Source: Terriglobales bacterium (lineage in GTDB: Bacteria; Acidobacteriota; Terriglobia; Terriglobales; Acidobacteriaceae). Taken from it: a stretch of 36,667 bases of DNA. How positions within the stretch are numbered: position 1 is the stretch's first letter; the number at the start of each line of letters is the position of its first letter. A model generated the notes under the pieces. That model ran no database searches. It saw nothing but the letters and a program-made list of their open reading frames with translations, and had not been told where the DNA came from. The stretch is from the NCBI GenBank assembly GCA_035543055.1, contig DATKKJ010000206.1, forward strand, positions 1 through 36,667, read 5' to 3'. The position numbers and the translations under genes are program-made. Positions 26,715-36,593 of this stretch are shown here, piece after piece.

Positions 26715-27299
26715 TCAGAAGCCCCGGCGAGCGACTACGGCAAGTCCAATCAAGGTCAACAATATGAGGCCAGCCGAATAGACGTAGTACAGGACTCGCA
26801 CCTTGGGCCAGAGCCACAACGGGAACTGATCTGCGAACTTGTCACTCCAAGAAGCCGATTGGGGACGCTCCCCTGGCAGACCTTCACCCTTGGATTTCCA
26901 TCCTGCCGCAAGCCATGTCGCTCTGAGGTTCGACAACAGCAATGCCGTGACGCAGATCCTTGCCACGATGCCCGGCGAGAGAAGCATGAAAGAACGAAGA
27001 AGGACAATGGCGACCAAGTCGACAACGTAGTACGCCAACACCAATGTCGCAGCGTACCGGCTGCCTGTGCGGATGCCCACTCCGCCAATGTAGAAGAGCA
27101 GGAAGAAGAGAAAGCCAGAGATGAGCTGGCCGCTAAGGGCCATGAACACGAACGACCCGGTCGCCACGAGCAGGCATACCCAATAGCCTTGGACTCCGAG
27201 GTAGTCGACATCCGCATCTGTCTGGATCGAAGGCCACAGTAAGCTCTTTAGGCGGCTTTCGGTTCGCGGTGTCGAGTCGGACAAGCCAAGCGTTTGCAT
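26715..27299 (-). CDS. Hypothetical membrane protein, about four helices
   Basis: 194 residues from the ATG at 27299. A soluble N-terminus of about 35 residues, then hydrophobic segments at about 38-62 (YWVCLLVATGSFVFMALSGQLI), 64-74, 80-105 (AATLVLAYYVVDLVAIVLL), 108-130, a hydrophilic loop (WKSKGEGLPGERPQSASWSD) and a last helix (VLYYVYSAGLILLTLIGLAVVA). I do not recognise a family. A GTG at 27344 would add 15 residues. Base composition is visibly more AT-rich than the neighbours, which suggests recent acquisition or low expression. Between its 5' end and the RND gene lies an array of 7-base repeats. Confidence 0.65.
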   Translation of the reverse strand: MQTLGLSDSTPRTESRLKSLLWPSIQTDADVDYLGVQGYWVCLLVATGSFVFMALSGQLISGFLFFLLFYIGGVGIRTGSRYAATLVLAYYVVDLVAIVLLRSFMLLSPGIVARICVTALLLSNLRATWLAAGWKSKGEGLPGERPQSASWSDKFADQFPLWLWPKVRVLYYVYSAGLILLTLIGLAVVARRGF

Positions 27300-27354
27300 C
27301 GGCGAAAGCTTACTTCCTGAATCTGGAAGTTTCCAGAGAATCACGCTCGGCTAG

Positions 27355-27389
27355 CGACTGCCGACTGCCGACTGCCGACTGCCGACTGC
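27355..27389. repeat. Heptanucleotide tandem array, five perfect CGACTGC units
   Basis: Five uninterrupted copies of CGACTGC, ending one base short of the stop codon of the RND pump gene (27391). Length is 35 bases, with no spacers, so not a CRISPR. Resembles the short tandemly repeated heptamers known from cyanobacteria and some soil bacteria. Confidence 0.85.
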
Positions 27390-27390
27390 T

Positions 27391-30300
27391 CTACCGCTCC
27401 ACCAGCTCACCGTTGCCGTTCGCCACTGGCAGTTCCTCCGGGATGGCCTCGCCGTTGGCGGCTTTGCCGGTCTTCCTCTGTACCCAGTTCTGGAACGAGT
27501 CCATGTAGGTGTAGATCACCGGGGTGATGTAGAGGGTGATGATCTGGGAGAACATCAGGCCGCCGACCACGGCCAGGCCCAGCGGACGCCGCGACTCGGC
27601 GCCGGCGCCGAAGCCCAGGGCGATAGGCAGCGTGCCCATCAGCGCCGCCATGGTGGTCATCATGATGGGTCGGAAGCGCACCAGCGCTCCTTCGTAGATG
27701 GCGTCAGCGGCATTCTTCCCGTGCTGGCGCTGCGCCACCAGCGCGAAATCGATCATCATGATGGCGTTCTTCTTGACGATGCCCACCAGCATGATCACGC
27801 CCACGAAGGCGTAGATGTTCAGGTCGATATGGAAGAGCATCAGGGTCACCAGCGCGCCGAAGCCCGCCGAGGGCAGACCCGACAGGATGGTCAGCGGGTG
27901 GATGAAGCTCTCGTACAGGATCCCCAGCACGATGTAGATGACCAGGATGGCGAGGATGAGCAGCACGCCCAGGCCCCGGATGGACGATTCGAAGGCCTGC
28001 GCCGTCCCCTGGAAGCTGGTGGTGATGGTCGAGGGCAGGGTATCGCGCGCCACCTTCTGCACCGCGCTGACGGCGTCGCCCAGGGCCACGCCCGGCTTGG
28101 TGTTGAACGACACGGTCACTGACGGCAACTGCCCCAGGTGGTTCACCGAAAGCGGCCCCAGGGTGGGGGTCAGGGTGGCGACCGCATTCAGAGGCACCAG
28201 CGCGCCTTTATCGGAGCGGATGTAGAGCAGGGAGAGCGCCGCCGGATCGCGCTGGAACTCCGGCTTCACCTCCATGATGACGCGGTACTCATTGTTGGGC
28301 GCGTAGATGGTCGAGATCTGGCGCTGGCTGTAAGCAGTGTAGAGCGCGTCCTCGACCTGTTGCGCGGTCACGCCCAGGGCCGCCGCCTGGTCCCGGTCGA
28401 TGTTGACGTTGACCTGCGGGTTCTTCACCAGCATATCGCTGGTCACGTCCTGGAGTCCGGGCAGCTCCCGCATCTTGGCCTCCAGTTTCGGGACCGCCGC
28501 ATACAGCTCCTGGGTGTCGGTGCTCTGCAGGGTGAGCTGGTATTGGCTCTTGGTGAGCTGCCCGCCGATGCGGATGGGCGGCAGGTTCTGGGGGAACACC
28601 ATGATGCCCGGCACCGACGCCACCTTGCGCCGCAAGTCCTGGATCACCTGGTCCACGTGCGGGCGGGTGTTGCGCGGCGTCAGGCGGACGAACATGCGCC
28701 CGGTGTTGCCGCCGCCCCCGCCTACGAACGACATGAACTGGTCGGCGTACGGCTGCTGCAGAATGATGTTCGCTACCTGCTTCTGGTGCTCGACCATGGA
28801 GTCGAACGAGATGCCCTGCGCCGCTTCCGTGATGATGAAGATCTGCCCGGTGTCCTCGCTGGGCAGGAAGCCCTTGGGGATGGCCACGAACAGATAGGCG
28901 GTGATCACCAGGATGACGGTGGAGACAAAGATCACGGTCTTGCGCCAGCGCAGCACCGGGGCCAGGGTGCGCACGTAAACGCCGAGCAGGGCGCCGAACC
29001 CGTTCTCGAACCAGCGGTACAGGAAGCCGTGGTGCGCCTCCTTCGAAGGCCGCAGCCAGCGGCTGCATAGCATCGGGGTCAGGGTCAGCGAGACGAAGCC
29101 GGAGACCAGGATGGCCACCCCGATGGTGACCGCGAACTCGTGCAGCAGCCGTCCCAGGATACCGCCCATGAACAGCACCGGGATGAAGACCGCGGCCAGC
29201 GACAGGGTCATGGAGATGATGGTGAAGCCGATCTCGCGCGACCCCCGCACCGACGCCTCGTAGGGGTGCTCGCCGTGCTCCATGTGGCGCACGATGTTTT
29301 CCAGCATGACGATGGCGTCGTCCACCACGAAGCCGACCGAGAGCGTCAATGCCATCAGCGACATGTTGTCCAGCGAGTAGCCGAACAGGTACATCGCCGC
29401 GAACGTGCCCACGATGGACATGGGCAGCGCCAGGCTGGGGATGACGGTCGCGGAGACGTTGCGCAGGAACAGGAAGATCACCATGATGACCAGGGCGATG
29501 GTCAGCATCAGGGTGAACTTCACGTCGTGCACCGAATCGCGGATCGAGACCGAGCGGTCGTAGAGCACCTCGAGGAAGACCGAGGCCGGCATCTGCTGGC
29601 GGAACTTGGGCAGCAGCGTCTTGATGTTGTCCACCACCTCCACCGTGTTGGTGCCGGGCTGGCGCTGGATGGCCAGCACCACCGAGCGCTCGCCCTTCTT
29701 GTTGAGGTAGAACATGCCCCGGATCTTGTCGTTCTCCACCGAGTCGGCGACGTCGCCGATGTCCTGCAGGCGCACCGGCGAGCCGTTCCGGTAGGTGACG
29801 ATCAGGGGCTTGTAGCCGGCGGCGTCGGTGAGCTGCCCGTTGGCCTGGACGGTGAACGCCTGCTTGTGCCCGTACAGGATCCCGGTCGGGAGATTGACGT
29901 TGGCGCGCTGGACAGCCTGGTTGACCTCGTCGATGCCGATCTGGCGGATGGCCATGGCGCGGGGATCGAGCTGCACCCGCACCGCGTACTTCTGCGAGCC
30001 GTACACCTGCACCTGGGCCACGCCCGACACCATGGAGATGCGCTGCGCCATCATGGTCTCGGCGTATTCATCCACCTGCGAGAGCGGCAGCGTGGGCGAA
30101 TAGAGCGCCAGGTAAAGGACGGGCTGATCGGCCGGGTTCACCTTCTGGTAGGAAGGCGGCGCCGGCATGTCCTGGGGCAGGTCCTTGGCGGCCTTGGAGA
30201 TCATCGACTGCACGTCCTGGGCGGCGGCGTCGATGTTGCGGTCCAGCGAGAACTGCAACGTGATCTGGGTGCTGCCCTGGAAGCTGCTGGAGGTCATCGA

Positions 30301-30534
30301 ATCCAGCCCGGCGATGGTGGAGAACTGCTTCTCCAAGGGGAGCGCGACGCCCGCCGCCATGGTTTCCGGCGTGGCCCCGGGCAGGGAAGCCGACACCAGG
30401 ATGGTGGGGAAGTCCACGTTCGGCAGGTCGCTCACCGGCAGCAACCGGTAGCCCATGACGCCGAACAGCAGGATGGCCGCCATGACCAGGGTGGTCATGA
30501 CCGGACGCCGGATGAAGAGTTCTGCCACGCTCAT
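27391..30534 (-). CDS. RND efflux pump permease, HAE1 family (MdtB/AcrB-like)
   Basis: Inner-membrane proton-driven drug exporter, 1047 residues, full length with 12 expected helices and two large periplasmic loops. N-terminus SVAELFIRRPVMTTLVMAA is typical. The proton-relay pair Asp405-Asp406 is in TLSVGFVVDDAIVMLENI, with a following GFTIISMTLSLAAVFIPVLF; the second half contains FVGVIMLVGIVKKNAIMMIDFA and TTMAALMGTLPIALGFGAG. Sequence style is closest to MdtB/MdtC multidrug pumps. The ATG overlaps the adaptor stop as ATGA. No outer-membrane TolC-like gene follows, so the pump must use a shared channel. Substrates are unknown. Confidence 0.94.
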   Translation of the reverse strand: MSVAELFIRRPVMTTLVMAAILLFGVMGYRLLPVSDLPNVDFPTILVSASLPGATPETMAAGVALPLEKQFSTIAGLDSMTSSSFQGSTQITLQFSLDRNIDAAAQDVQSMISKAAKDLPQDMPAPPSYQKVNPADQPVLYLALYSPTLPLSQVDEYAETMMAQRISMVSGVAQVQVYGSQKYAVRVQLDPRAMAIRQIGIDEVNQAVQRANVNLPTGILYGHKQAFTVQANGQLTDAAGYKPLIVTYRNGSPVRLQDIGDVADSVENDKIRGMFYLNKKGERSVVLAIQRQPGTNTVEVVDNIKTLLPKFRQQMPASVFLEVLYDRSVSIRDSVHDVKFTLMLTIALVIMVIFLFLRNVSATVIPSLALPMSIVGTFAAMYLFGYSLDNMSLMALTLSVGFVVDDAIVMLENIVRHMEHGEHPYEASVRGSREIGFTIISMTLSLAAVFIPVLFMGGILGRLLHEFAVTIGVAILVSGFVSLTLTPMLCSRWLRPSKEAHHGFLYRWFENGFGALLGVYVRTLAPVLRWRKTVIFVSTVILVITAYLFVAIPKGFLPSEDTGQIFIITEAAQGISFDSMVEHQKQVANIILQQPYADQFMSFVGGGGGNTGRMFVRLTPRNTRPHVDQVIQDLRRKVASVPGIMVFPQNLPPIRIGGQLTKSQYQLTLQSTDTQELYAAVPKLEAKMRELPGLQDVTSDMLVKNPQVNVNIDRDQAAALGVTAQQVEDALYTAYSQRQISTIYAPNNEYRVIMEVKPEFQRDPAALSLLYIRSDKGALVPLNAVATLTPTLGPLSVNHLGQLPSVTVSFNTKPGVALGDAVSAVQKVARDTLPSTITTSFQGTAQAFESSIRGLGVLLILAILVIYIVLGILYESFIHPLTILSGLPSAGFGALVTLMLFHIDLNIYAFVGVIMLVGIVKKNAIMMIDFALVAQRQHGKNAADAIYEGALVRFRPIMMTTMAALMGTLPIALGFGAGAESRRPLGLAVVGGLMFSQIITLYITPVIYTYMDSFQNWVQRKTGKAANGEAIPEELPVANGNGELVER

Positions 30535-31673
30535 GAGCGGTTTTCCTGCTGCGGCTCAGCCGCACCTTGCTGCTGCTTGATCTCGACCTTGGCGCCCGGC
30601 ACCAGCCGCACTTGGCCGTCGGTGACCACCCGTTCGCCCGCCTGCACGCCCTTCTTGATGACGGTCATGTTGTCGATGGTCCAGCCCGGCTCGATGGGAC
30701 GCATGTCCACCGTCTGATCGGGCTTGACCACGAACACGTACTGCCCCTGCTGGCCGGTCTGCACCGCCGCCGAAGGTACGATGACCGTATCCGGCTGCTC
30801 GGCCAGGGTGAGCACCACATTCACGAATTCTCCCGGCCACAGCCGCCGGTCATGGTTCTCGAACGTCCCCTTCAGCTTGATGGTGCCGGTGGTCAGGTCC
30901 ACGGCGTTATCGATGAAAGTCAGGGTCCCTTGCGCCCGCTGCGGGTTGTCGGGGAAGACGGCCTCGACCTTGAGCTTTCCCGATTCTCGCCGCTGCTTGA
31001 TCTGCGGCAGCTCCTGCTGCGGCACTGAGAAGGTGACGTAGATGGGCTCGACCTGGTTGATGGTGACGATGGGATCATCGGGGTTCGCCTTCACGATATT
31101 CCCGCGGTGCACCATCAGGTTGCCGGTGCGCCCGTTCACCGGCGAGTAGATCTTGGTGTAGGAAAGCTGCACGCGGGCGTACTCGACCGCGGCCTTGTCG
31201 GCTTGGACGGCGGCTTGCGACGCTTCTGCCTTGGTGCGCGTGTCGTCGTTCTGCTCCTTGGAGACGACACCGGCCTGGTGCAGCTTCTCGTAGCGCTGGG
31301 CCTGGAGTTCATCATTCCTGGCCGTGGCCGTGTCCTTGGCCAGGGTGCCGAGGGCGCGCTGCAGGTCGGCCTCGAAGCTGCGCGGATCGAAGGTGAACAA
31401 GAGCTGGCCTTGCTTGACGTCCTGCCCTTCGCTGAAGTGCACTTCCATGATCTGGCCGGTGATCTGCGGCTTCACCCCGACGGTGGTGTAGGCCTCGACA
31501 TTGCCGATGGCCCGCACCTGCACGGGCACCGTCTTCTGCTCGGCCGTGGCGATGGTGACCGCCACCGGCGGCGGACCCGCCGACTGCACTTTCTGGCCCG
31601 AGCAGCCGCTGAGCCCGAGGGCCAGCGCCATGACTGCGGTGCTGATCAAGATCTTCATATGATTTCCGTTCAC
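30531..31673 (-). CDS. RND efflux adaptor (membrane fusion protein), lipoprotein
   Basis: Periplasmic adaptor linking the pump to an outer-membrane channel, 380 residues. A lipobox LSGC at residues 21-24 predicts lipid anchoring. Then barrel-sandwich part (TVGVKPQITGQIMEVHFSEG), a helical hairpin (about 105-170, LQRALGTLAKDTATARNDEL), the second lipoyl half (YTKIYSPVNGRTGNLMVH) and beta-barrel/proximal domains to KVEIKQQQ. The GTG at 31673 overlaps the tetR stop as GTGA; an ATG at 31658 with GGAA upstream is an alternative start. Middle gene of tetR-adaptor-pump. Confidence 0.92.
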   Translation of the reverse strand: MNGNHMKILISTAVMALALGLSGCSGQKVQSAGPPPVAVTIATAEQKTVPVQVRAIGNVEAYTTVGVKPQITGQIMEVHFSEGQDVKQGQLLFTFDPRSFEADLQRALGTLAKDTATARNDELQAQRYEKLHQAGVVSKEQNDDTRTKAEASQAAVQADKAAVEYARVQLSYTKIYSPVNGRTGNLMVHRGNIVKANPDDPIVTINQVEPIYVTFSVPQQELPQIKQRRESGKLKVEAVFPDNPQRAQGTLTFIDNAVDLTTGTIKLKGTFENHDRRLWPGEFVNVVLTLAEQPDTVIVPSAAVQTGQQGQYVFVVKPDQTVDMRPIEPGWTIDNMTVIKKGVQAGERVVTDGQVRLVPGAKVEIKQQQGAAEPQQENRS

Positions 31674-32335
31674 TTGCCCACTCTCTTCCTATGAATCCCG
31701 CCGTTATTTCCGGACGACCCGCTCACCACCATGCCGTTGAGCCAGAGGTCGGTCAAGACCGCCGTGGCCTCAGCGTCGTCGTACTGCTGATGTCGTTTGC
31801 CGCCAAAGAGCTCCTGCACCTGGAAGTAGTTGTTGATCATGCCCAGGAACCCGCGGGCGGCGAGCATGGGATCCACTTCGCGGAAGCCCCCCTCGCGGAT
31901 ACGTCCCGCGATATACCCGGCGAGAAGCTCGAAGTAGCGCGCTACCTGGGTGCGGAAGAAGCGCTCGGAGAGGGTGTGACTCTCCAGGGCGCTGAACAGC
32001 AGCAGGCGGCTGAGGCTGGAGTCCTTGCGGCGGCGGTCCAGGATGTCGGCAGCGATCCCCTGGAAGATCTCACGGTCGCTCTTGCCCGAGGCCAGACGCG
32101 CTTGCAAGTCCTCCTGCCAAGTCGCCACCTTGCACTTTTCCTCGATCACCGCCCAGTACAGGTCCTCCTTGCTGGGGAAGTGGCGGAAGATGAGGGCTTC
32201 GTTCACCCGCGAAGCCTGGGCGATGTGACGGGTGGTGGTGCCGTTGAAGCCCTGGCGGGCGAACAACTGGCTGGCCACCTCGAGGATCTGGTGGCGGCGG
32301 TCCTGGGCGGTGAAGCGCACTCGTGCGGTCGCCAT
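31670..32335 (-). CDS. TetR/AcrR-family transcriptional regulator
   Basis: 221 residues. N-terminal helix-turn-helix domain about 10-60 (RRHQILEVASQLFARQGFNGTTTRHIAQASRVNEALIFRHF described by its ends: RRHQILEVA and ALIFRHFPSKEDLY). The C-terminal ligand-binding domain is helical. It is the first gene of the efflux operon and shares a transcript with adaptor and pump, so it probably represses all three until a drug binds. A 7-bp palindrome (32339-32356) overlapping the promoter just before its ATG is the likely operator. No Shine-Dalgarno is seen; the predicted leader is only about 12 bases. Confidence 0.92.
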   Translation of the reverse strand: MATARVRFTAQDRRHQILEVASQLFARQGFNGTTTRHIAQASRVNEALIFRHFPSKEDLYWAVIEEKCKVATWQEDLQARLASGKSDREIFQGIAADILDRRRKDSSLSRLLLFSALESHTLSERFFRTQVARYFELLAGYIAGRIREGGFREVDPMLAARGFLGMINNYFQVQELFGGKRHQQYDDAEATAVLTDLWLNGMVVSGSSGNNGGIHRKRVGK

Positions 32336-32338
32336 AGG

Positions 32339-32356
32339 AGTAAGTAATCACTTACT
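32339..32356 (-). promoter_or_regulatory. Probable TetR operator (AGTAAGT-N4-ACTTACT)
   Basis: Perfect 7-bp inverted arms AGTAAGT and ACTTACT around a 4-base centre (18 bases), spanning from the -10 box to a few bases before the tetR ATG. A repressor bound here would block RNA polymerase, giving autoregulation of tetR and the pump genes. Sequence and position are typical of AcrR-type operators. Confidence 0.75.
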
Positions 32357-32382
32357 TTAGGTGCGGGAACCGCGCCTGTCAA
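32354..32382 (-). promoter_or_regulatory. Sigma-70-type promoter of the tetR-efflux operon
   Basis: Minus strand: perfect TTGACA (32377-32382), 17-base spacer, TAAAGT (32354-32359, 4/6). The -35 directly adjoins the stop codon of the upstream amrA-like gene. The -10 overlaps the operator palindrome. Confidence 0.7.
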
Positions 32383-33003
32383 TCACAAGTTTGCGGGCTC
32401 AGGCGTGGTGGCGCAGCGCCGGCCGGGGGCCTCGGAAAAGACTTCGGCGGTGAACGCTTCGACCGTGGCCCCGTGCTGCCAGGCGTCGCCGGGAAGGCCG
32501 GCCTTGTGGCAGGTCTCGCTCAGGAAGGTCTCGCGGTCCCAGCCGTACTCCACCGGGACCTGGGGCAGGAGCAGGCCGCGCCGCGCCCCCAGGGTGACGA
32601 CCAGCCCGTGGCGGCCCACTTCCACGTCCTCGGGCGCGATCGGCTGCAGCTGCGACAGCACGCTGATCTCGACATCGATCTCCCCTGCTTCTTCCGGCGA
32701 GAGCGGCAGGAAGCGGGTGTCGTGCAGGGCGGCGGCGACGGCGGTCTCGGCCACGGTGCGCGCCAGTGAGCGCACCGGGAAGACGTAGCCCACGCATCCG
32801 CGCAGCTGCCCCTGCCGGTGCAGGGTGGTGAAGGCGCCGCGCTTTTCGGCCAGGTGCTCGCAGGGCGGACTCGTGTCCACCTCCTGCCCTTGCAGGGCGG
32901 CGCTGATGGCGTCGTGGGCGAGCTTCAGCAGGAAACGGCGCTCGTCGACTGAATACTCGGCGCCGCTCTCGGCGGGCGGATCGGCATCAGGTTGCGGCAA
33001 CAT
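32383..33003 (-). CDS. amrA: AMMECR1-domain protein (AmmeMemoRadiSam system protein A)
   Basis: 206 residues with the AMMECR1 domain: EYSVDERRFLLKLAHDAISAAL, EKRGAFTTLHRQGQLRGCVGYV (the invariant LRGCxG core), DTRFLPLSPEEAGEIDVEISVLSQLQPI and the GLLLPQVPVEYGWDRETFLSETCHKAGL block. Often linked with a Memo-like protein and a radical SAM enzyme in the AmmeMemoRadiSam cluster; neither is in this window, so it acts alone here. The ATG at 33003 has GGAGGA about 6 bases upstream and overlaps the end of pgsA by 17 bases, implying co-transcription. Biochemical role is unsettled. Confidence 0.9.
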   Translation of the reverse strand: MLPQPDADPPAESGAEYSVDERRFLLKLAHDAISAALQGQEVDTSPPCEHLAEKRGAFTTLHRQGQLRGCVGYVFPVRSLARTVAETAVAAALHDTRFLPLSPEEAGEIDVEISVLSQLQPIAPEDVEVGRHGLVVTLGARRGLLLPQVPVEYGWDRETFLSETCHKAGLPGDAWQHGATVEAFTAEVFSEAPGRRCATTPEPANL

Positions 33004-33634
33004 CGCGCTTCCTCCGGCGGAGAATGAAGCGGCGGCGTCTCTGGCGCACCATCACCGTGCGGTCGATCTTGCTCCAGAACCCCACAAAATAATCCACTGC
33101 GGAGCCCAGCGACAGGGCCACCATGAACCAGATGGCCATGTGCGCGACCAGCTTGATGGAAAAGATATAGGGGCCTACAGTCCAGGACTGCCATTGATGC
33201 TCGACGATGGCCGCCACCACGGCCACGATCTGCGCCACCATCTTCACCTTGCCGAAATCGCTGGCCTCGATGGTGAAGCCTTCCGAGGCCGCGATGGAAC
33301 GCAGGCCGCTGACCAGGAACTCCCGTCCGATGATCACCACCGCCACCCAGGCCTTGACGATCGAGGGATTGAACTGCACCAGGGTGATGAAGGCCGCGGT
33401 GATCATGAGCTTGTCGGCCAGGGGGTCGAGCAGCATGCCCAGGGTGGTGATCTGGCCGCGGCGCCGCGCCAGGTAACCGTCGAGGCCGTCGGTGATCGAG
33501 GCGGCGATGAACAGGGCGGAGGCCAGCAGCTCGCGCGAGCCGTCGGTGCTGGCGAACCGCTGGCTGGACAGGATCCAGATCAGCAGCGGGACGCTGAAGA
33601 TGCGGGTCAGCGTGATGTAATTGGGAAGATTCAC
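32987..33634 (-). CDS. pgsA: CDP-diacylglycerol-glycerol-3-phosphate 3-phosphatidyltransferase
   Basis: Makes phosphatidylglycerol phosphate from CDP-diacylglycerol and glycerol-3-phosphate in the inner membrane. 215 residues, opening NLPNYITLTRIFSVPLLIWIL, typical of PgsA. The CDP-alcohol phosphotransferase motif (DG-x2-AR-x8-G-x3-D-x3-D) is complete in DGLDGYLARRRGQ followed by TTLGMLLDPLADK. About six helices; the basic C-terminal tail (RQRRRRFILRRRKRD) is unusually Arg-rich and lies partly in the overlap with amrA. Start is GTG at 33634 with GGAAG about 5 bases upstream. Confidence 0.93.
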   Translation of the reverse strand: MNLPNYITLTRIFSVPLLIWILSSQRFASTDGSRELLASALFIAASITDGLDGYLARRRGQITTLGMLLDPLADKLMITAAFITLVQFNPSIVKAWVAVVIIGREFLVSGLRSIAASEGFTIEASDFGKVKMVAQIVAVVAAIVEHQWQSWTVGPYIFSIKLVAHMAIWFMVALSLGSAVDYFVGFWSKIDRTVMVRQRRRRFILRRRKRDVAAT

Positions 33635-33733
33635 GGCGCTTCCGCTGACAATACTGCGGGCACACTACTCCGTGTGCTTCCGATTATCCTCCACGCCTAG
33701 GGCGAAAGCAACGCAAGGGGACGCGGCTTTACA

Positions 33734-34606
33734 ATGGCGCAAGTGCCTGAGCTCAAGAGCAAGACCGGTCCCGTCGTCCTCACCATCCCCGGCCTCGAGC
33801 GGCTGCCCTGGCTGGCGCACGGCTTCAGCACCCGCCTGGCGGGATTCTCCCAGGTCTATGGAGGGCGGTCGCTGAACCTCGGATTCACGCATGACGATAC
33901 GCGCGAGGCGGTGGAACGCAATCGCGCCGCCTTCCTGGGCGCGATCGGGGCCAGGGGCTGGCCCATGGTCACGGCCCGCCAGGTCCACTCCGACATCGTG
34001 CTCCGGGTGGAAGGACCTCCGGCGGTCCCGCTGACCGGGGACGCGCTGGTCACGCATGCGCGCGGCCTGGTGCTGGCGGTCAAGACCGCCGATTGCGTCC
34101 CCATCCTGCTGGTGGATGCGAAGAAGAAAGCGGTAGCCGCCATCCATGCCGGCTGGCGGGGGATGGTGAAACGCATCGTGGAGAAGACCGTGGGTGTGTT
34201 GCGACGCGAGTACGGAAGCCAGCCGGGCACGCTGCACGCCGCCATCGGGCCCGGCATCGCCGCCTGCTGCTACGCCGTGGGGGACGAGGTGCGCGAGGCC
34301 TTCGATTCCCAGTTCGCCTACGCCGCCCAGCTCTTCCACGAGGTGATGGCCCACCACGAAGTCAGGGAGCGTTACCCCCTGCTGTTCCTGACGGCGCGCG
34401 CCCCCGGGCATCACCCGCTCGGCCGCAAGCTGCATCTCGACATGGCGATGGCCGCGCAGCGGCAATTGCTCGACGCCGGCGTGCCCCACAAGCAGATCTT
34501 CGCCACCGGCAAGTGCACCTCCTGCCACAACGACCTGTTGTTCTCCCACCGCAGAGAAAAGGGGATCACCGGCCGGCAGGTGGGAGCGATCGGCATTCGT
34601 CCGTGA
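33734..34606 (+). CDS. pgeF: Multicopper-polyphenol-oxidase-type purine nucleoside phosphorylase (laccase-domain, YfiH/LACC1 family)
   Basis: 290-residue cytoplasmic protein of the DUF152/YfiH family. Zn-site residues are in TARQVHSDIV (His), KTADCVPILLVD (Cys) and AIHAGWRGMVKRI (His). Also AIGPGIAACCYAVGDEV and FATGKCTSCHNDLLFSHRRE. Family members phosphorolyse adenosine and inosine, and E. coli YfiH (PgeF) also edits peptidoglycan precursors. The ATG at 33734 has only a distant AAGGGGA; a TACAAT overlaps the ATG, and an in-frame GTG at 33743 could be a leaderless start. It is divergent from pgsA and is the only plus-strand gene in the last 14 kb. Confidence 0.92.
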   Translation: MAQVPELKSKTGPVVLTIPGLERLPWLAHGFSTRLAGFSQVYGGRSLNLGFTHDDTREAVERNRAAFLGAIGARGWPMVTARQVHSDIVLRVEGPPAVPLTGDALVTHARGLVLAVKTADCVPILLVDAKKKAVAAIHAGWRGMVKRIVEKTVGVLRREYGSQPGTLHAAIGPGIAACCYAVGDEVREAFDSQFAYAAQLFHEVMAHHEVRERYPLLFLTARAPGHHPLGRKLHLDMAMAAQRQLLDAGVPHKQIFATGKCTSCHNDLLFSHRREKGITGRQVGAIGIRP

Positions 34607-34644
34607 ACGGCGGGCGGACTGACAGAAAAATCGATTGAAGATCT

Positions 34645-34672
34645 CAGATCGCAGATTTCAGATCGCAGATCG
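34645..34672. repeat. Heptanucleotide tandem array, CAGATCG units
   Basis: Four contiguous 7-base units (CAGATCG, CAGATTT, CAGATCG, CAGATCG) in the 127-base convergent gap between pgeF and the phosphatase gene. Same unit length as the arrays at 27355-27389 and 34700-34727. Confidence 0.75.
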
Positions 34673-34699
34673 CCCGACACGCTGGCTCTTGGAAGCAAC

Positions 34700-34727
34700 T
34701 GAGTACGGAGTACCGAGTACTGAGTAC
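34700..34727. repeat. Heptanucleotide tandem array, NGAGTAC units, followed by T6
   Basis: Four contiguous units TGAGTAC, GGAGTAC, CGAGTAC, TGAGTAC, then TTTTTT (34728-34733) directly against the stop codon of the phosphatase gene (34734). GAGTAC and GTACTC segments can pair, so with the T-run it might act as a terminator for pgeF. The pairing is short and this is uncertain. Confidence 0.75.
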
Positions 34728-34733
34728 TTTTTT

Positions 34734-36593
34734 CTACGCGCGCCGGTGGCTCTCGTGCTTCCTGGCGCCGGCACTGGCGCCGGCGATCGCACCCGAGCCC
34801 GTCACCTTCAGCACCATCAGCACCTTGTCATCGACGTGGGTGCCATTGCTGGAGAAGACGTTGACGTCGGCCAGCACCGAGTCCACCAGCTCCTGGGCGG
34901 GCTTGTGGCGGTGCTGATAGACGGAGGCGGCCAGGCGCTCGGTGCCAAACTCGTCGTCGGCCTCGTTGTTGGCCTCCAGGATGCCGTCGGTGCAGCACAC
35001 CAGCAGGTCGCCCGCCTTGAGCTTGGCCGAGCCCCGCTGGTACTCGGTGGCCAGGAAGAGGCCGATGACCGTGCCGCCCTCCTCCAGCGTCTGGAACTTG
35101 CCGGTCTCGCCGTCGATCAGGATGGGCGGGACGTGGCCGGCGTTGATGTAGTGCAGGCCGTTGCGCCGCGTGTCCACCAGCCCCAGGAACATGGAGAGGA
35201 ATTTCTGGGACTTGGTGTCGTTGCAGATCATCTCGTTCAGTGAGAGCGTGAGCACCTCGAGGGAATGCAGGTGCATGACCAGCGCGCGCAGGGTGGCCTG
35301 CAGGTTCGACATCACCAGCGCCGAAGAGACCCCCTTGCCCTCCACGTCGGCCACCACCAGCAGCAAGGACTGAGGCCCGAGGTGCAAGAAGTCGTAATAG
35401 TCGCCGCCGACCTCGTAGCAGGGCTCGTTGATGACCGCGATGTCGTAGCCGGGCACGATCGGGGGAGCGTCCGGCAGCAAGGAGCGCTGGATGCCCCGGG
35501 CCAGGGCCAGTTCCTTCTCCAGCCGCTGCTTCTCCACCACTTCGCGGTGGAGACGCGCATTCTCCAGCGCCATCGCCATGTGCCCGGAGAGCTTGGAGAG
35601 GAACTCCTGGTCGTCATTCGAGAACCGCGAGGCGTTGACCTTATTTAAGAGCTGGATGACGCCGACGATGTCGCCGGTGTGGTGGCGGATGGGAAGGCAC
35701 AGCAGCGACCTGGTCTTGTATCCGAACTTCTGGTCGAAGCTGCGGTCGAAAAAGTCCAGGCTGTAGGCGTCTTCGACGTTGATCGGCACTCCGCTCTCGG
35801 CCACCTTGCCGGCGACGGCCTTGCCGATGGGGACGCGGATCTCCTGGTGGTCGAGCCCGCTGGCCACGATGGACCAGAGCTGCTTGTGTTTGGTGTCCAC
35901 CAGGAAGACGGTGCCGCGGTCGGCTTTCACCTCGGTGCGCGCGATCCTGAGGATGAGGTCGAGCAGCTCGGCCAGGTCGAGGGTCGAATTCAGAAGCCGG
36001 GTGGCTTCGAACAGCAGGGAGAGCTGGGTGATGGTCTTCTGGCTCTCCTGCGACGCCAGCGCGTCCTGCGCGGCCACGCTGCTGATCTCGGCATAGAGCT
36101 GCCACCACTCCAGCTGGGTGTCGTTGGCCGAATTCTGGGTGTATGCCACCAGGATCCCGAACATCCGCCCCTTCGCCAGCAGCGGGTAGGCGGAAAGGTA
36201 AGCCAGCTTGGTCAGCGCGGCGAACTCGGCCATGTCGGAGCCGGCGGCAGTCAGTTCGGCGTTCTCGCTCATCTGCCGGGACTGGAGTGTCCCCCCGATG
36301 ATGCCTTGTCCGGGATTGCGGTAGTCCTTGCGGTGGCTCGCGTTCAGGCCGGCGGCGTGGGTCAGGTAGGCGGAGCCGGAGGACTCGTCCCACAGCCACA
36401 GTTCGCCGCGGGCGGCGCCGAACTCGGCCACCAGGATGGTGGGAATGCTGCTCAGCACTTCCTCGCCCGAAGGCGCCGAGGTCAGGCGCGCCACCGCCTC
36501 GCCAAAGGCGGAAATATAGCCCTTACGAGCTGCTTTCGCTTTTTCCGCTGCGGCCGGTGATTCCACGTCCTTCTGAGCCTTTCCAGTCCCCAC
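34734..36593 (-). CDS. GAF-GAF-SpoIIE (PP2C-type) protein phosphatase, RsbU-like
   Basis: 619 residues. First GAF-like domain about 30-175, second GAF about 195-345 (DRGTVFLVDTKHKQLWSIVAS; GVIQLLNKVN), a short coiled coil (ENARLHREVVEKQRLEKELA), then a SpoIIE/PP2C phosphatase domain from about 375. Metal-binding Asp residues are in YEVGGDYYDF (Asp398) and VVADVEGKGVSSALVMSN (Asp416), with further motifs INAGHVPPILI, LVCCTDGILEANN and DDKVLMVLKV. Such proteins dephosphorylate STAS antagonists in response to a signal sensed by GAF domains. Start is GTG at 36593 with a weak GGGG stretch; no better start is seen. No cognate kinase or sigma factor adjoins it. Confidence 0.9.
   Translation of the reverse strand: MGTGKAQKDVESPAAAEKAKAARKGYISAFGEAVARLTSAPSGEEVLSSIPTILVAEFGAARGELWLWDESSGSAYLTHAAGLNASHRKDYRNPGQGIIGGTLQSRQMSENAELTAAGSDMAEFAALTKLAYLSAYPLLAKGRMFGILVAYTQNSANDTQLEWWQLYAEISSVAAQDALASQESQKTITQLSLLFEATRLLNSTLDLAELLDLILRIARTEVKADRGTVFLVDTKHKQLWSIVASGLDHQEIRVPIGKAVAGKVAESGVPINVEDAYSLDFFDRSFDQKFGYKTRSLLCLPIRHHTGDIVGVIQLLNKVNASRFSNDDQEFLSKLSGHMAMALENARLHREVVEKQRLEKELALARGIQRSLLPDAPPIVPGYDIAVINEPCYEVGGDYYDFLHLGPQSLLLVVADVEGKGVSSALVMSNLQATLRALVMHLHSLEVLTLSLNEMICNDTKSQKFLSMFLGLVDTRRNGLHYINAGHVPPILIDGETGKFQTLEEGGTVIGLFLATEYQRGSAKLKAGDLLVCCTDGILEANNEADDEFGTERLAASVYQHRHKPAQELVDSVLADVNVFSSNGTHVDDKVLMVLKVTGSGAIAGASAGARKHESHRRA

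Follow-up and report, generated by a model that had tools for sequence, protein, structure and literature searches.

Seven-base tandem arrays of many different words line gene ends in an Acidobacteriaceae genome and other Acidobacteriota

Our analysis revealed a large population of gene-end repeats with a seven-base unit in Acidobacteriota. These arrays resemble the GGGAATC repeats of Xanthomonas in build, consist of dozens of different words, and nearly none of them is capable of forming a quadruplex. The stretch under study, here called the window, comprises 36,667 nucleotides (contig C206, DATKKJ010000206.1) from the draft genome of a Terriglobales bacterium of the family Acidobacteriaceae (GCA_035543055.1, referred to as G000; 3,321,218 bases in 255 contigs). 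A first-pass annotation of the window had pointed out three heptanucleotide arrays in intergenic gaps, and direct reading as well as Tandem Repeats Finder returned the same positions (Table 1). Third-order Markov copies of the window (100 in all) held 0.05 arrays of the same score on average and never more than one, against three observed, which confirms that the three arrays are real and beyond chance.

An excess of seven-base arrays elsewhere in the genome, which the first-pass annotation had made a touchstone of its idea, was found for many words. It was assessed in a sample of 504,408 bases drawn from every fifth contig between C5 and C200 (40 contigs, no more than 20 kb of each); with the window added, this amounts to 541,075 bases or 16% of the genome. 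Five further genomes were likewise analysed by samples; the stretches of four of them (G129, G219, G293 and G061) were taken from contigs with a known searched word, which introduces a mild bias. Exact lag matches of at least 12 numbered 10, 24, 8 and 6 at lags 7, 14, 21 and 28 in the 504,408 bases, compared with 0–2 at lags divisible by neither 3 nor 7, at most 3 at multiples of 3 other than 21, and at most 1 in a Markov copy. Genes were predicted with a hexamer model rebuilt for each genome, which yielded 34 genes in the window and places stops more surely than starts. With the first gene set, 50 period-7 arrays in the 541,075 bases were intergenic and 7 lay within predicted genes; the rebuilt set divides the 57 into 48 intergenic, 5 coding and 4 at edges, and extrapolation gives about 350 arrays genome-wide. 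At a score of at least 13, array density per Mb was 96 in this genome, 64 in its sister species G001, 338 in G219, 238 in G293, 150 in G129 and 138 in G061, compared with 0 in 27 kb of G073, 37 in 21 named Acidobacteriota loci and 7 in 36 loci of other named phyla. Over the six genomes 194 of 230 arrays were intergenic, 27 lay in predicted genes (11 of 33 in G219) and 9 at contig or stretch edges. Four whole units were counted in 117 of the 194 intergenic arrays, a figure to be read with the detection threshold in mind, which drops imperfect three-unit arrays.

Other periods behaved differently. Intergenic arrays of period 5, 8, 10, 11, 13 and 16 numbered 1, 4, 0, 0, 1 and 5, and periods 6, 9, 12, 15 and 18 together gave 3 intergenic and 64 coding arrays. 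This distribution bears on the possibility that the arrays are microsatellite-like tracts which slip in place and are tolerated between genes because seven is not a multiple of three. The near confinement of multiples of three to coding sequence and of period 7 to intergenic sequence speaks for it, as does the existence of one long array. However, the other frame-breaking periods 5, 8, 10, 11 and 13 are rare, and therefore the reading frame alone does not select seven. The long array (L052:19203-19374; 172 bp) contains 24 whole units in a mixture of CTGAGTA-like and CTTGGTA-like words and is the longest that we have seen.

The first-pass annotation had further suspected a preference for gene 3′ ends, the second point on which it could have been refuted, and the samples of the six genomes bear out a bias toward gene ends, most strongly toward stop codons. 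No more than 10 bp from a gene edge we found 117 of the 194 intergenic arrays (83 at 3′ ends, 34 at 5′ ends), while random placement in the same gaps gave a mean of 58 and a maximum of 75 in 2000 trials. When the nearest gene end within 15 bp is considered, 85 arrays belong to stops and 41 to starts; 15 arrays, as segmented, start on the second base of the stop codon. The words are also oriented. On the coding strand after stops, CAG words (43) outnumber CTG words (13; neither in 29), and before starts CTG words (19) outnumber CAG words (10; neither in 12), so that 62 informative arrays agree with a polarity out of the gene, 23 disagree and 41 are uninformative. An earlier test of simpler design yielded 31 of 42 for G000 and 14 of 17 for G001. 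Independently of the word, pairs of arrays with the same word had equal polarity in 404 of 609 cases in G001 (permutation p 0.0005), in 81 of 132 in G000 (p 0.02) and in 512 of 776 when the pairs within all genomes were taken together (reached in 0 of 2000 permutations). In the samples of G000 and G001 the words thus tend to point out of the gene, and by inspection all three window arrays follow the same outward rule.

The 206 arrays with coding ones counted in contain 93 distinct words, and the repertoire is not the same from genome to genome. CAG or CTG is contained in 46 of these words, compared with a mean of 25 and a maximum of 38 in 300 letter-shuffled sets. For the window arrays the first-pass annotation had stated that they share no sequence. 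This holds for the whole word, but not for its first letters, since by inspection all three read CAG-N4 on the coding strand of the gene that they follow (CAGTCGG, CAGATCG, CAGTACT). Two general rules for the words were considered and rejected: CAG is enriched and yet half of the words lack CAG/CTG, so it is no universal core, and a palindromic tetramer is present in 33 of 93 words when 38 are expected after letter shuffling.

Single words were followed through 297 genomes of the phylum, this one among them, allowing at most 3 mismatches in 28 bases. AGTACTC was detected in 12 genomes (reversed controls 0–4 per genome), CAGCTAC in 8, and the CAGATTT word family in 22 (reversed controls 0–2). 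By eye, AGTACTC and CAGCTAC occur together in G000, G001 and G219, AGTACTC and CAGATTT in G000, G125 and G293, and CAGCTAC and CAGATTT in G000 and G278. The searched words recur across several families (f1, f30, f33, f34 and others) and are absent from most of the 297 genomes. In this genome AGTACTC has 52 overlapping matches at no more than 2 mismatches, and its reversed control none. The highest number of overlapping AGTACTC matches among the 297, 524, was counted in G129, a 4.9 Mb genome of another family. Reversed words are not a pure background, as judged from the CAGCTAC control: the reversed word gave 35 matches in G172, 44 in G219 and 1–6 in six further genomes, and because of the strong matches in the first two the backward word may itself be a natural array word. 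For the general pattern CAGNNNNCRGNNNNCRGNNNNCAG the reversed control also gave sizeable counts in this genome (269 real vs 135 reversed matches), in G061 (102 vs 58) and in G082 (127 vs 50), a further point against CAG as a universal core. Control matches even prevailed in G097 (locus L146, Gammaproteobacteria SZUA-229), where the reversed pattern (GACNNNNGRC and onward) had 159 matches and the CAG pattern 7; another repeat with a seven-base period may exist there.

The commonest word, AGTACTC, is a dispersed element of about 32 bp with a preferred internal register. The 49 listed copies (26 in this genome, 23 in G001) show the order AGTACTC AGTACTC GGTACTC AGTACTC AGTT in a recurring register. 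Of 25 copies in the G001 stretches 22 have a G-bearing unit, which stands third in 16; for the 14 copies of the G000 sample the figures are 8 and 4. Intergenic runs of GTAC at 7-bp spacing in G000 and G001 contain two boxes in 17 cases, three in 17, four in 20, five in 2, six in 1 and fourteen in 1. For five other palindromic tetramers runs above two were found for CTAG in G001 alone; the G001 stretches hold seven intergenic runs of exactly four CTAG boxes at this spacing, a second four-box word.

Many arrays are arranged in inverted pairs. A similar array in inverted orientation lies no more than 200 bp away for 70 of the 194, compared with 24 in direct orientation, 0 for the reversed control and 13 for the complement control, the last probably raised by self-complementary words. 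In an earlier array set an inverted partner was present in 20 of 74, a direct one in 10, and the complement and reversed controls gave 3 and 0. The inverted partners might suggest that the arrays act as stem-loops at transcript ends, either as terminators or as stabilisers of the mRNA, and words with GTAC do fold well (z of −2 or lower in 35 of 47; the AGTACTC consensus folds on itself with z −4.6). However, GTAC words are the only ones of three compared classes that fold well, no folding was detected in the 94 arrays without a palindromic tetramer (median z 0.09), and the three array-bearing stretches of the window are unremarkable (z −0.8 to −1.4). A simple terminator pattern was present at 10 of 79 array-bearing 3′ ends and at 74 of 850 others, at most a small apparent excess. 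As a general explanation, transcript-end stem-loops therefore appear improbable to us.

The nearest compared genome, G001, belongs to the same genus and is assembled in 8 contigs; its GAF-SpoIIE protein is 89% identical to that of the window. We compared 80 arrays, 57 from the window and the sample and 23 from 15 loci of the AGTACTC search, of which 19 map by both flanks to 1.196 Mb of G001 and 61 were dropped as their flanks were not colinear. Twelve of the 19 arrays score in the orthologous gap above all of 50 shuffles of themselves, and 11 have an array of the same word there; L072:11668 (10 vs 9) was left out of the 11, the G001 array being of another word. By source, arrays were kept at 5 of 10 sites from window and sample and at 6 of 9 from the loci of the word search, a set that favours AGTACTC. 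In nine of the 11 gaps with a kept array, other sequence makes up 20 bp or more; for 7 of the nine this sequence aligns no better than its shuffles, the exceptions being L018 and L020:1630 (the spacer of the latter contains another array); this contrast between array and spacer is indicative, as the gaps are by construction the parts left unaligned by BLAST. The number of units was equal, by eye, in four ortholog pairs (L018, L045:1499, L072:2694 and L012:1577). With regard to the window, a partly decayed copy of the AGTACTC array is present at the same place in G001, the orthologous G001 gap has no counterpart of the CAGATCG-like array, and no array was seen by eye at the site corresponding to the CGACTGC array. 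That the arrays result from faulty assembly or from chance, for which the 255 contigs of the draft might speak, is already refuted by the Markov controls and by the same-word arrays in the eight-contig sister genome, and we leave this reading next to no chance.

Short tandemly repeated repetitive (STRR) sequences of filamentous cyanobacteria are heptanucleotide tandem repeats dispersed in the genome. The Xanthomonas GGGAATC repeats (Rehm et al. 2015, PMC4692102) belong to one G-rich word family and form G-quadruplexes; they favour four units. They share with our arrays the convergent pairs and the overlap with stop codons, the appearance on the sense strand at stops and on the antisense strand before starts, and the fact that most stand between the same genes in both species compared. 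Unlike this single word family, our arrays comprise 93 words, and the four G3 or C3 runs that a quadruplex requires were found in 1 of 194. Extensive length variation was reported between the two Xanthomonas species, which was not seen by eye in our four pairs. Nostoc arrays treated in the same article are rarely paired. The TAACTGA repeats of marine Beggiatoaceae (MacGregor 2015, PMC4679880; 169 direct sets and one indirect) are similar to ours in their period of 7, their 2–6 units and their patchy distribution across lineages; most stop one to a few bases short of a start codon and carry CTG on the coding strand, 13 sets that are oriented like the downstream gene overlap an upstream stop, and in one Bacteroidetes case the repeat stands reversed after a stop. 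They differ in that one word is used and starts are preferred, where we find many words and a preference for stops. In Geobacter metallireducens (Aklujkar et al. 2009, PMC2700814) paired sites consist of four or five tandem heptamers, GGACCGG and MTYCTGA, a class 3 is drawn with strand switching like the paired classes, and five-heptamer sites are grouped with these; in contrast to our arrays there are few words, and GGACCGG is also found inside genes. According to the work of Mrazek et al. (2007) that PMC4679880 and PMC4692102 describe, heptanucleotides are over-represented in many genomes, and a slippage unit set by polymerase contact was proposed; that group of repeats is a statistical class, and no statement on Acidobacteriota was seen in these descriptions. 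Among titles and abstract openings, with subscription papers mostly outside the search, no earlier report of heptamer arrays in Acidobacteriota was found, and passages of PMC12699852 and PMC4060949 yielded nothing specific.

The Geobacter metallireducens sites were termed predicted regulator or RNA elements (PMC2700814), and a role of this kind has also been proposed for the TAACTGA repeats of Beggiatoaceae; the arrays described here could likewise be selected binding sites of a regulator or an RNA-binding protein at gene ends. Their retention where the spacer can no longer be aligned, their contact with start and stop codons and the enrichment of CAG/CTG would agree with this. On the other hand, 93 words in 206 arrays are unlike one site, and neither the 3′ nor the 5′ position is exclusive, so that we regard binding sites as a rather unlikely explanation.

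A further comparison concerns repetitive extragenic palindromic (REP) elements and bacterial interspersed mosaic elements (BIMEs), which are moved by Y1 transposases (REP-associated tyrosine transposases, RAYTs) and are likewise short, dispersed, intergenic and found in inverted pairs (PMC8266576, PMC3733652). Y1_Tnp matches are present in this genome (11) and in G001 (8), and in the latter a sub-threshold CAG heptamer stretch (L195:18656-18680, score 9.2) lies about 100 bp upstream of one of the 6 Y1 genes examined. Unlike in REP elements, a GTAG tag is not consistent: it was found in the 22 bases preceding 4 of 49 AGTACTC copies, each time at another offset, and most words do not fold. No array of score at least 12 lies within 600 bp of any of the 6 Y1 genes, which led us to reject these transposases as the mover; the Y1 genes of L038 and L233 are flanked instead by GTAG-tagged palindromes, and G073 and G082 combine many CAG-pattern matches with 1 and 0 Y1 matches. 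We consider an origin as REP-type elements very improbable. The two Y1 genes with their GTAG-preceded palindromes (L038:4829-5176 and L233:18808-19185) look like ordinary REP-RAYT pairs, apart from the heptamer arrays.

The first-pass annotation had proposed slippage or a heptamer-making enzyme as the common generating process, and as a current process slippage was not supported. Identity between units at lags 7, 14 and 21 is nearly flat (0.825, 0.814 and 0.808 in 168 arrays), so likeness of neighbouring units had to be discarded as a mark of slippage. The trimmed lag-7 identity of 0.820 nevertheless lies near the top of the unit-shuffled values (mean 0.813, maximum 0.822), a point for slippage, as is the heptanucleotide excess described for many bacteria (PMC4679880). 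Because of the dispersal, the preferred register, the polarity, the near-flat identity and the equal unit number in four ortholog pairs, slippage is disfavoured as the present process; inverted pairs also speak against it. We judge in-place slippage unlikely, but slippage may have made the first copies.

As the best explanation of the whole we propose that the arrays are short dispersed intergenic elements which line gene ends and are copied as blocks, a proposal to which we give nearly an even chance. Such an element would typically measure 28–35 bp and consist of four to five heptamers of one word. A word might be born by tandem duplication of a heptamer, and a block of about four units might then be copied by some process to further gene ends. 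Blocks would persist at gene edges because they are harmless there or because they are useful at transcript ends, possibly through stem-loops formed by inverted pairs or GTAC words, or through protein binding. Several observations weigh against block copying. No mover was found near the 6 Y1 genes examined, and no precise empty site came to light; where the orthologous array is missing, the gap sequence differs, as judged by eye. The register has been demonstrated for one word, 6 of 14 AGTACTC copies in the G000 sample lack the G unit, and GTAC runs above two are missing from the samples of G293 and G129. The polarity is not significant in G219 (8 of 12 pairs, p 0.14), was not seen in the few arrays of G293 (0 CAG and 2 CTG at stops, 2 and 2 at starts) and is opposed by the one array of G129. 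Finally, length differs between species in the Xanthomonas arrays, whose build comes nearest to that of ours (PMC4692102).

Table 1. Heptanucleotide arrays and adjoining features in the window
Feature	Position	Strand	Remarks
Heptamer array CGACTGC x5	27355-27389	minus	perfect; coding strand CAGTCGG; direct reading and Tandem Repeats Finder
RND efflux pump gene (ACR_tran, PF00873)	27391-30534	minus	stop adjoins CGACTGC array
Cu-oxidase_4 (laccase-domain) gene	33734-34606	plus	upstream of CAGATCG-like array
CAGATCG-like array, 4-5 units	34645-34672 (periodicity 34639-34673)	plus	direct reading and Tandem Repeats Finder
AGTACTC array (NGAGTAC x4 on plus strand)	34700-34727 (periodicity 34698-34728)	minus	direct reading and Tandem Repeats Finder
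T-rich tail after AGTACTC array	34729-34736	plus	imperfect hairpin (array) and tail, 34698-34736
GAF-SpoIIE phosphatase-like gene	34734-36593	minus	stop adjoins AGTACTC array

The distances of two window arrays from minus-strand stops agree with those first noted: a single base separates the CGACTGC array from the end of the RND gene at 27391, and 6 bases lie between the AGTACTC array and the end of the GAF-SpoIIE gene at 34734. The CAGATCG-like array (CAGATCG CAGATTT CAGATCG CAGATCG) begins 32 bases 3′ of the stop of the plus-strand Cu-oxidase_4 gene, whose best named relatives are Acidobacteriales and Acidobacteriaceae. The AGTACTC array reads TGAGTAC GGAGTAC CGAGTAC TGAGTAC on the plus strand, corresponding to AGTACTC AGTACTC GGTACTC CGTACTC AGTT on the minus strand. 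None of the three has a partner of the same word, and the 20-base run GACTGCCGACTGCCGACTGC of the CGACTGC array has no second exact copy in the genome. Together with its T-rich tail the AGTACTC array is predicted to form a hairpin of 11 pairs, interrupted by a 2x2 internal mismatch (the whole stretch reaches a z of only −1.1), and this stem-loop followed by U residues weakly suggests a terminator-like structure for transcripts of the plus-strand gene; the terminator scan did not list it. Beside the CGACTGC array a predicted minus-strand gene (26715-27344) has no Pfam family and no nucleotide match in 400 kb of G001.

The four-unit arrays of Xanthomonas have been tied to quadruplexes, since their word is G-rich and four G-tracts are needed (PMC4692102). 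With the needed tracts in 1 of 194 arrays here, quadruplexes cannot be the general reason for this build, and it is the shared build rather than quadruplex chemistry that needs explaining. The presence of a similar build in many words without such tracts suggests that the word is secondary to unit length, unit number, position and polarity. As a long shot, the arrays of Acidobacteriota, Xanthomonas, Beggiatoaceae and Geobacter might even form one class in which the word is free and the build fixed, made or copied by a machinery not yet described whose counting unit is seven, while the words change like dialects from genome to genome. If true, the fixed build of such a class would comprise about four seven-base units that directly adjoin gene ends, point outward and often stand in inverted pairs. 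With the many words of the Acidobacteriota arrays, the question why bacterial repeats favour seven bases becomes testable in many genomes at once, and related genomes with and without given words are available for comparison.

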